Of a DNA stretch of 64,000 nucleotides, positions 28,688-32,688 are shown in pieces. Numbering within the stretch: the stretch's first letter is position 1; each line of letters opens with the position of its first letter. Source of the DNA: Halorussus salinus (lineage in GTDB: Archaea > Halobacteriota > Halobacteria > Halobacteriales > Haladaptataceae); the NCBI RefSeq assembly GCF_004765815.2, contig NZ_ML974127.1, positions 124,001 to 188,000 on the forward strand, given 5' to 3'. Under the pieces are notes generated by a model. The model searched no databases. It was not told the DNA's origin and saw only the letters and a program-made list of their open reading frames with translations. Position numbers and translations under genes: made by a program.

Positions 28688-29891
<1,204 letters not shown>

Positions 29892-30068
29892 CTATCCTAA
29901 TTCGCTACCCGATAGGAAGTTGGTGAGGATGGTCGGGAGTATCACACCGACGACCAATCCGACGCCGATAGCTATCGACGTGCTACCCGTCAGCTGCTGA
30001 ACAGCGTAGAAAGAACCGATTGCGAGTACTATCGCCGCCAAGATGATGACGTTGTTACGTGAGTTCAT
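29892..30068 (-). CDS. 58-aa two-helix membrane protein next to the halocin gene
   Basis: A small protein on the same strand as, and downstream of, the halocin C8-like gene. It starts MNSRNNVIILAAIVLAIGSF, has a second hydrophobic segment (around IAIGVGLVVGVILPTIL) and ends SGSELG. It has its own TATA element (TATAAAATAC on the minus strand, 30091-30100), 23-32 bases before the ATG, consistent with a leaderless mRNA. By position it could be an immunity or secretion helper. No homologue is known to me. Confidence 0.65.
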   Translation of the reverse strand: MNSRNNVIILAAIVLAIGSFYAVQQLTGSTSIAIGVGLVVGVILPTILTNFLSGSELG

Positions 30069-30090
30069 ATTTCAGTATCTTACCTGTGCG

Positions 30091-30100
30091 TATTTTATAC
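30091..30100 (-). promoter_or_regulatory. TATA element of the 58-aa membrane protein gene
   Basis: TATTTTATAC on the plus strand reads GTATAAAATA on the coding strand, centred about 27 bases before the start at 30068. This is the spacing for leaderless haloarchaeal transcription. Confidence 0.6.
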
Positions 30101-30309
30101 AGTATAGTGCATATACTTTTTGCCAGTGTCTTTTTATGTCGTTCTTCGAAGAGGACGGATCGACGCGGTTTAACCGCGCTCGAACGTGGTCGATCTGAGC
30201 AGACTACCGGTAATACGAAGAATGTGATAGGACAGCGAGCAACCATCAGCAAAAAAGAAACGAATTGGAAAGTATGCGGTGCAGATCGTCGCCGGAACTA
30301 TCGGCCAAC

Positions 30310-31173
30310 TCAGCAGAGACCGACTTCTTCGCACGCCGCCTCGCCGACGCCCGTCTCCGAGCAGCCGTAGTAGGCCGCCAGCGAGCAGGTGACACTGACG
30401 AGCGTCGTACAGGCGACACCGCCGATGGCGGTGATGCCGAGGATACCACAGGCGAGACCGCCAGCGAGTCCACAGCCGTTCTGACAGATGAGGACCGCGG
30501 CCCACTTACACTCGCCACAGACGCCTTGCGTGGTGATCTGGTCTCCAGACTCGCCCTCGATGCGGTCTTTGGCGTTGTCGATGGCCGTCCGAATCTCGTC
30601 CTCGACCTCGACGACCTTCTTCGTCGCGCCGAAGCTCGTCGACTCGATGGCGACGTTGTCGGTGGTCGCGGTGCTGAGGTCGGCGTCGCTCAGAACGTCG
30701 TAGACGACTTTCTTCTGGAGAATGCCGTCGTCTGCGTAGAACTTCTCGGTGACGTTAGCGACCGAGACGCCCTCGCTGAGGTCGCGGCCGATGTTCACGA
30801 AGAGTTCGCCCTCGGAGTCCGAGTCGACGGCAACCGAGACGACTTCGCGGGTCTTACCGTTCGCCTCGAGACGCGCGGCCTCGGAAGTTTCGGTAAGTTC
30901 GCCACCTTTCTCGGCGACGATGTCGAGGAGCTGGTCGTACTCCGACGTTTGGCTGAGACGCTTGAGGAGGCCCTTCTTTCGGCCGCCTTCGATCTCCGTG
31001 AAGTCCCACGGAATGTCGGACTCGCTGAGGCCGCCCTGCGTTTTCGCGGCGGCGTTACCGAGACCGAACGCCGTCGCTGCGGCACCAGCACCGAGCGTCT
31101 TCAGTACGTTACGTCGATCGAATCCACTGTCCGCTTCGCTGTCGTTGCTTCGGGGAATGTCTTTGTCGGACAT
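30310..31173 (-). CDS. Halocin C8-like bacteriocin precursor (Tat-exported, immunity domain plus Cys-rich peptide)
   Basis: A 287-aa precursor with a twin-arginine signal (DRRNVLKTLGAGAAATAFGL, residues about 19-45) and a central domain of about 165 residues. In halocin C8 the corresponding region acts as the immunity protein. The C-terminal segment of about 73 residues, starting around GVCGECKWAA, has ten cysteines in a pattern like mature halocin C8 (CGEC, CQNGC, GGLACGILGIT, a late YYGC and a final EEVGLC). The precursor length is close to the known one (283 aa, as I remember). The mature peptide is hydrophobic and probably disulfide-bonded. The gene is AT-richer than its neighbours. Confidence 0.88.
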   Translation of the reverse strand: MSDKDIPRSNDSEADSGFDRRNVLKTLGAGAAATAFGLGNAAAKTQGGLSESDIPWDFTEIEGGRKKGLLKRLSQTSEYDQLLDIVAEKGGELTETSEAARLEANGKTREVVSVAVDSDSEGELFVNIGRDLSEGVSVANVTEKFYADDGILQKKVVYDVLSDADLSTATTDNVAIESTSFGATKKVVEVEDEIRTAIDNAKDRIEGESGDQITTQGVCGECKWAAVLICQNGCGLAGGLACGILGITAIGGVACTTLVSVTCSLAAYYGCSETGVGEAACEEVGLC

Positions 31174-31200
31174 TGCAATAATTCATTAGTGCCATGGTTG

Positions 31201-31210
31201 AATAAAATAT
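31201..31210 (-). promoter_or_regulatory. TATA element of the halocin-like gene
   Basis: AATAAAATAT on the plus strand (ATATTTTATT on the coding strand) lies 28-37 bases before the ATG at 31173, matching a leaderless promoter. Confidence 0.55.
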
Positions 31211-31277
31211 TCGGACGCGGAGAAATAAAAGTAATTAAGTAAGGAAATGTATCTTAGGCAGAGTATAGTGAGTCATT

Positions 31278-31409
31278 ATGATTATAAACCAAAATAAACC
31301 TGTTCTCGATGTATTAAGTCCTGTTGAAATATTAGAAGTTCTACTAATTGGGCCAAACTACGACAAACGTCATCCTCGGGTGCGGACCTGCTCTCGTCGC
31401 GGTACGTGA
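31278..31409 (+). pseudogene. Possible truncated 5' gene fragment beside the halocin locus
   Basis: An AT-rich ORF begins MIINQNKPVLDVLSPVEILE and continues plausibly as protein for about 30 residues. It then runs into GC-rich sequence (from about 31370) with Arg-rich, non-coding-like codons before stopping at 43 aa. The composition break suggests the start of a gene cut off where the AT-rich island joins the core genome. It could instead be chance. Confidence 0.3.
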
Positions 31410-31416
31410 ACTCGAC

Positions 31417-32688
31417 TCATTTGTCGCGCCACGCCGCCGAGACCCGCAGTTCGTCAGCTACGGCTCCGATGCTGTTCTCGGCCAGCACGCCCCGCTCCGT
31501 GACGACCCGCGAAATCGCGGCCGCGGGCGTCACGTCGAAGGTCGGATTCAGCGCCGTGAGTTCGGCGTCGCCGTCGTACACTGCCGCGGGGTCGCCGTTC
31601 TCCAGATGCACCGCGTCGTCGGTCCGCACCTTGTCGCTCGCGGCGACGGCGTAGACCGGGATGCCCTCGCGACTCGCGGCGAGTGCCGCGCCCCGCGTCC
31701 CGGTCTTGTTCACGACGCGCCCGTCGGGCAGAATCGCGTCCGCGCCGACGACCATGCGGTCTACCTCCTCGGTCGCCAGCACGTGGGCGACTGCGGCGTC
31801 GGTGTGGAGCGTCACGCGGGGACCGGAGCCGTCGGATTCCCCGCCGCTCGCGGCCAACTCTGCGGCGACGCCGACGCCCTCCCGTGCCGGGCGCGACTCG
31901 GCGACGAAGACCCGCCGGGCCGCGGGCAGGGCGTCCAGCAGGGTTCCCGACCGCGAGAGGGTCAGGACCGACTCGCCCCGAATCTCGTCGGCGGCGTTCG
32001 CGGCGGCCTCCTCGTCCGCGCGGTAGGCTCGCTCGATGCCCTCGCGGGCGGCGCGCTCGACGGCCGTCGGGCTTCGCTCCTCTGCGGCCGCGGCCATCGC
32101 GCGGTTCACGCGATTGGCGACCGCGGCCATGCTCGGGCGGGCGTCGAGGAGCTTTTCGGCGACGGCGACGAGTTGCGCCCACCCGACTCCGTCGCGCTCC
32201 GCGAACGACCCCGCCCGGTCGCGCAGAACCTCCAGCGCCCGGACCGAGAGGTACGCCGACCCGTGGTCCGAATCCTCGGCGACCTGCCGGATGGTCGGGC
32301 CGACCCGCGAGTACGACGCCCAGAGGTTCGGGACGGTCTCGCGCCGCAGTATCTCGGTCGGGTGGACCCACTCGAACTCGCTAGTCTCCCAGTCGGTCTC
32401 GGCGTCGCGGCGCTCGCAGTCGAAGAGATAGGGGTGGACGGTCCACGCGATACCGAGGTCCTCGTCCTCGAAGGTGAACGTCACGCCTTCCCGAGCGAGC
32501 GTGCAGGCGTCCAGAAGCCCCGTCTCCTCTGCTATCTCGTCGCGGGCCGCCCGGTCGGGGTCGCCCTCGGCGTGACCCGCGACGCCGCCCCATCTGCCGG
32601 GATAGGACCCGACCTCCTCGGAGCGACGCAGGAGGAGTACTTCGCCGCGGTTCCGCAGGAAACAGGTCACGACGTGGGTCTCGTCCAT
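31417..32688 (-). CDS. Nudix domain fused to an eIF2B/ribose-1,5-bisphosphate isomerase-like domain
   Basis: A 423-aa two-domain protein. Residues 1-130 form a Nudix-type domain with a slightly irregular Nudix box (GHAEGDPDRAARDEIAEETG). Residues about 150-423 belong to the eIF2B alpha/R15P isomerase/MtnA superfamily (VFVAESRPAREG, VGADAILPDGRVVNKTGT, VYAVAASDKV). The fusion is found in haloarchaea and could couple nucleotide cleavage with sugar-phosphate or nucleotide metabolism; a true translation factor role is unlikely. The start at 32688 (MDETHVVTCFLRN) is preferred over nine extra upstream residues. Confidence 0.87.
   Translation of the reverse strand: MDETHVVTCFLRNRGEVLLLRRSEEVGSYPGRWGGVAGHAEGDPDRAARDEIAEETGLLDACTLAREGVTFTFEDEDLGIAWTVHPYLFDCERRDAETDWETSEFEWVHPTEILRRETVPNLWASYSRVGPTIRQVAEDSDHGSAYLSVRALEVLRDRAGSFAERDGVGWAQLVAVAEKLLDARPSMAAVANRVNRAMAAAAEERSPTAVERAAREGIERAYRADEEAAANAADEIRGESVLTLSRSGTLLDALPAARRVFVAESRPAREGVGVAAELAASGGESDGSGPRVTLHTDAAVAHVLATEEVDRMVVGADAILPDGRVVNKTGTRGAALAASREGIPVYAVAASDKVRTDDAVHLENGDPAAVYDGDAELTALNPTFDVTPAAAISRVVTERGVLAENSIGAVADELRVSAAWRDK

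Follow-up and report, generated by a model that had tools for sequence, protein, structure and literature searches.

A short accessory insertion in Halorussus salinus probably carries a two-gene module of the halocin C8 (HalC8) family, in which a bacteriocin precursor gene is followed by the gene for a 58-aa membrane protein that is most likely a partner in producer protection or export. Its precursor belongs to this family, the two genes lie in one shared insertion, and small membrane proteins are statistically associated with HalC8-like genes. The module would be one case of a general layout, since HalC8-like loci most likely combine a precursor with an exchangeable small membrane protein that would serve in self-immunity or export. 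The window, i.e. the whole 64,000-nt stretch of contig NZ_ML974127.1 that was analyzed, contains the features listed in Table 1.

Table 1. Features of the halocin C8-like locus (positions in the window)
Feature	Positions	Strand	Basis
Halocin C8-family precursor, 287 aa	30310..31173	-	TIGR04449, HalC8-type alignment, tree
C-terminal halocin C8-like domain, residues 219-287	30313..30519	-	TIGR04449 match and Cys spacing
Predicted membrane protein with two helices, 58 aa; proposed role in immunity or export	29892..30068	-	Hydropathy, AlphaFold2, homologues
Possible leaderless promoter, 31-nt stretch starting with TATAAAAT	30069..30099	-	Sequence inspection only
Accessory insertion, about 1.63 kb, between D-2-hydroxyacid dehydrogenase gene and NUDIX/IF-2B-like gene	29795..31422		Empty sites in G014/G017; GC

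The HalC8/ProC8 precursor, which has about 283 aa, is covered by the NCBIfam family TIGR04449. This profile (halocin_C8_dom) matches the C-terminal domain of the window precursor with 35.4 bits (cut-off 24), and the original prediction that the 287-aa ORF keeps the halocin C8 plan of a Tat signal, a middle domain, and a hydrophobic ten-Cys C-terminal peptide was supported. The twin Arg of the Tat signal are residues 20-21, with the Pfam TAT_signal profile scoring 21.7 bits, marginally under its cut-off of 22.7. Pfam Hac8_like_N (PF22862) gives 18.7 bits over residues 62-159, below its cut-off of 27, and the putative middle domain is backed by a full-length alignment with the HalC8-type precursor (32% identity, pairwise E 3e-28). 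The ten Cys are in the HalC8 register as anticipated, with spacings of 2,7,3,7,12,7,7,9,5 versus 2,7,3,7,13,7,8,8,5 in the HalC8-type peptide, i.e. six of the nine are identical and three are off by one residue. At 44-45% identity to the HalC8 peptide, the C-terminal peptide is also considerably unlike that of the type halocin, again as originally proposed. In a tree with 54 relatives, the precursor forms a separate, deeper branch that is sister (97/90) to a clade in which the HalC8 types are joined by a group bearing a DIPYF-like C-terminal extension. Taken together, the TIGR04449 match, the Cys register, the full-length alignment, and the tree indicate that the precursor is a genuine, divergent member of the HalC8 family. 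As judged from its sequence, it is a member by domain and not an equivalog of the NF040679 type (halocin C8 precursor-like protein), for which it scores 14.1 bits against a cut-off of 200.

AlphaFold2, using a shallow alignment of seven sequences, modeled residues 56-207 of the precursor as a helix pair followed by strands with fair confidence, and the peptide with low confidence; a comparison of this model with PDB folds returned no match at E <= 0.001. A search of the genome contigs with the window precursor as a single query gave no match, and the same search with alignment A2 as query identified six named relatives. No plasmid relatives of the window precursor were found. In the window's own genome (G000), there is no match to TIGR04450, the Gram-positive HalC8-like family, and there are three HalC8-like genes, whose downstream neighbors all differ; the other two are at C4:335984-336796 (L087) and C5:223635-223832 (L088).

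An ITTQ motif occupies residues 213-216 of the precursor, ahead of the first Cys. Of 60 precursors, 10 (L086, L104, L095, L111, L117, L125, L091, L126, L123, and L144) have a motif of the form [VI][ST]TQ shortly ahead of the first Cys, compared with about 0.4 expected, and this motif could represent a processing site. The start of the mature peptide is probably a few residues ahead of residue 219, near ITTQ, a position for the cleavage site that we infer from the sequence.

The boundaries of the insertion are given by two related genomes in which the site is empty. Their alignment to the window ends at 29772 (G014) and 29794 (G017) and restarts at 31424 and 31423, with 146 and 63 bp in between, respectively, so that the insertion reaches slightly past the interval first noted (29892-31409). 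In several relatives' genomes, 148-397 bp separate the two flanking genes, versus 1797 bp in the window. The insertion is absent from closely related genomes, and in five relatives (G020, G013, G026, G012, and G021) different, non-halocin ORFs are found at this position, which is therefore a variable site. The locus is indeed AT-rich: its GC content of 54.7% compares with 67.2% in the window as a whole and is about the minimum among all 1628-bp stretches there. Apart from the precursor and 58-aa genes, it holds no convincing gene. In particular, the 43-aa ORF at 31278, which had been regarded as a truncated gene bounding the locus, found no support as a gene remnant: it has no Pfam or NCBIfam match, and tblastn found nothing better than E = 1 in the loci examined. 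A T-rich tract follows the precursor stop, and a terminator scan of the insertion found none. There were no signs of a mobile element, i.e. no transposase-like gene among the insertion ORFs and no notable flanking repeats.

Outside the insertion, at 29692-29756, an intergenic element of about 65 nt is conserved; it consists of an outer helix and two inner hairpins and is possibly an undescribed structured RNA. The outer helix displays compensatory changes (GGCGGC/GCCGCC to GGTGGT/ACCACC), and the element has no match in Rfam. The 27-nt core of the element occurs once per genome in 16 of 59 haloarchaeal genomes, from eight genera, and adjoins different genes in other genera.

The second gene starts 241 nt downstream of the precursor on the same strand, and its product is the two-helix companion originally predicted. 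Hydropathy reveals two hydrophobic segments, and AlphaFold2 (single sequence) places helices at residues 2-27 and 30-54 with a mean pLDDT of 79. The protein has a net charge of 0, and comparison of its gene with the nearest homologue gives a dN of 0.40 and a dS of 0.82. A leaderless promoter is plausible, because a TATA-like box, TATAAAAT, begins 31 nt ahead of the ATG. As shown by a profile match, identity of up to 58% to members, and the two predicted helices, the protein belongs to an uncharacterized, MVSREN-type two-helix family whose members typically start with MVSREN and have a VGVxxPTxxN-like second helix; unlike typical members, the window copy starts with MNSRNN. The family is present in 205 of 391 haloarchaeal genomes (63 of 86 genera), including a further copy in the window's own genome, and its members are mostly away from halocins, usually adjoining other genes. 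By sequence, the 58-aa protein is therefore not halocin-specific.

The co-occurrence of the 58-aa protein with halocins, raised in the original prediction, consequently does not extend to the sequence family as a whole. The nearest relative (58% identity, in G319) has no HalC8-like gene within the 16 kb read around it. However, two loci do show it. A family profile built without the G085 protein was run on the 7771 small ORFs from the surroundings of 60 halocin loci; its best non-self match was a 61-aa protein, a weak homologue (E 3e-5, only 22 bits), 18 nt after the halocin gene of that genome (L104). At a second locus (G413/L173), a homologue of the 58-aa protein (E 6e-6) is found 1.65 kb from the halocin gene on the other strand; the peptide of this halocin closely resembles that of the window in its C-terminal half, and its precursor frame is only 150 aa. 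Co-occurrence also holds for position and architecture, since small membrane proteins are over-represented downstream of HalC8-like genes.

This over-representation was determined for 60 HalC8-like loci, with 399 other genes in the same regions (up to 20 kb) as controls. Companions were defined as proteins of 45-135 aa with at least two hydropathy-predicted helices, encoded no more than 300 nt downstream by mechanically called ORFs; the 300-nt threshold was chosen after data inspection, and the outcome is similar with limits of 100 nt and 150 nt. A companion follows 33 of the 60 HalC8-like genes, compared with 2 of 60 on the upstream side and 20 of 399 controls (Fisher p 2e-20). Counting by clusters at 50% identity, the figure is 25 of 45 (p 8e-17), with related genomes not independent despite the clustering. 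Among eight further loci, five have a companion downstream and none upstream, two of the five being near-copies of companions already counted. The gap is below 130 nt in 31 of the 33 cases, and the window's 58-aa protein fits this proposed positional class by its size and location, with the longest gap of the set.

At E < 1e-3, the 33 companions fall into 20 sequence families that share no common sequence, several of which recur across genera. A single superfamily was suggested by eye and is not claimed, because membrane helices yield false profile matches. For pairs of companions from one family, the per-site difference is lower for non-synonymous than for synonymous changes. Ten small proteins of this type, mainly companions, were compared with Pfam and NCBIfam, and none attained a cut-off; one companion corresponds to an annotated protein (WP_012289645.1) of H. 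salinarum pHSAL1. One family occurs in both co-directional (L117 and L134) and convergent (L120 and L122) orientation. We found no earlier report of a precursor followed by a small membrane protein in the open-access literature searched, which did not include the original HalC8 papers and Besse et al. 2017.

At L088 (9632-11674, minus strand) and L100 (8070-10115, plus strand), the HalC8-like domain forms the end of a much longer protein of 680 aa, which matches a Tat signal weakly and contains no further Pfam domain, and a convergent 71-86 aa two-helix ORF comes after its gene; a similar long form of 706 aa is encoded at L142. At L106, a convergent AI-2E family transporter adjoins the HalC8 gene, and at this and two more type-like HalC8 loci (L111 and L145) an ORF for a two-helix protein of 69-74 aa lies some 4.2 kb upstream and weakly matches the profile of the 58-aa protein's family (E 0.007-0.7). 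On pNRC200 of H. salinarum NRC-1 (L148, 3031-5354), the halocin C8-like gene is shorter, and an ISH30 transposase gene stands where 91-R6 has a small companion, possibly a natural loss of both the peptide end and the partner.

We propose that the precursor would be exported via the Tat pathway and cleaved to release a putatively toxic, hydrophobic ten-Cys peptide of roughly 71-75 residues. The middle domain would have an immunity-like role, in line with what is reported for HalI of HalC8, and the 58-aa two-helix protein would sit in the membrane as a partner in producer protection or export. The downstream slot would be filled from many unrelated families, in this instance by a common haloarchaeal two-helix family. 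Recurrence of the layout at about half of the HalC8-like genes examined suggests an overlooked immunity partner for a toxin thought to be single-gene. We put forward more tentatively that HalC8-like bacteriocins may generally be two-gene modules in which the exchangeable small membrane protein is the cognate immunity protein, single-gene production and immunity then being the exception.

The main alternative, rather unlikely in our view, is that the precursor is a self-sufficient halocin with a HalI-like immunity domain and that the 58-aa gene is a bystander with an unrelated membrane role. A housekeeping bystander was in fact our first idea, demoted to a rival after the neighborhood test. It fits a family that is widespread and mostly found in other contexts, and the TATA-like box together with the T-rich tract past the precursor stop suggests separate transcription. 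In addition, production and immunity of HalC8 are reported to come from one gene, according to the account of Sun et al. 2005 given in PMC11509114. These points count against a two-gene module, as do the distance of most family members (including that in G319) from halocins, the unusually long gap, the missing adjacent partner at the type-like loci L106, L111, and L145, and the many unrelated families of companions. On the other hand, both genes share a 1.63-kb insertion with nothing else convincing inside, and the enrichment in the downstream slot applies to small membrane proteins as a whole. Moreover, by a rough estimate, chance adjacency of this two-helix family would account for about 0.006 cases among about 60 halocin genes, versus two observed within 300 nt, one of them at only 22 bits.

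It is unlikely that the small membrane proteins serve export, anchoring, or processing of the precursor rather than immunity; both roles can also coincide. bPH_2 (YdbS/YdbT-like) proteins, which are required for transport of a leaderless bacteriocin (enterocin) in Enterococcus (PMC8657885), are encoded on the downstream side at two HalC8-like loci, a genetic position of the same kind as in leaderless bacteriocin operons, but they are absent from the window's island. Of four such loci that were followed further, three have a second membrane protein (334-366 aa, with seven to nine predicted helices) after the small one. However, Tat signals on the precursors imply that export is already provided, and the lack of sequence relation among companions is more readily explained by a recognition role that changes fast than by a common machine. 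It is highly improbable that spurious hydrophobic ORFs account for the enrichment. Such an artefact could be suspected in AT-rich islands, like that of the window, given the mechanical ORF calls and the use of hydropathy only for helices. However, the upstream side of the same loci is nearly devoid of such ORFs, companion pairs look coding, several families recur across genera, and one companion is an annotated protein.

Our preferred reading, a halocin C8-family precursor with a membrane partner, can be compared with known systems. The window locus differs from type-like HalC8 genes in that a small membrane protein gene adjoins its precursor. Halocins are not known to be circular. Circular bacteriocins usually have small hydrophobic dedicated immunity proteins encoded next to the bacteriocin gene (PMC6131525), a likeness in general description that speaks for the proposed role of the 58-aa protein; they are described as cationic, whereas the 58-aa protein is neutral.

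Should a separate membrane partner prove to be present in most relatives, the view of how archaea protect themselves would change. About 20 small-protein families would gain a testable function, and the downstream slot would offer a simple rule for locating candidate archaeal immunity genes.
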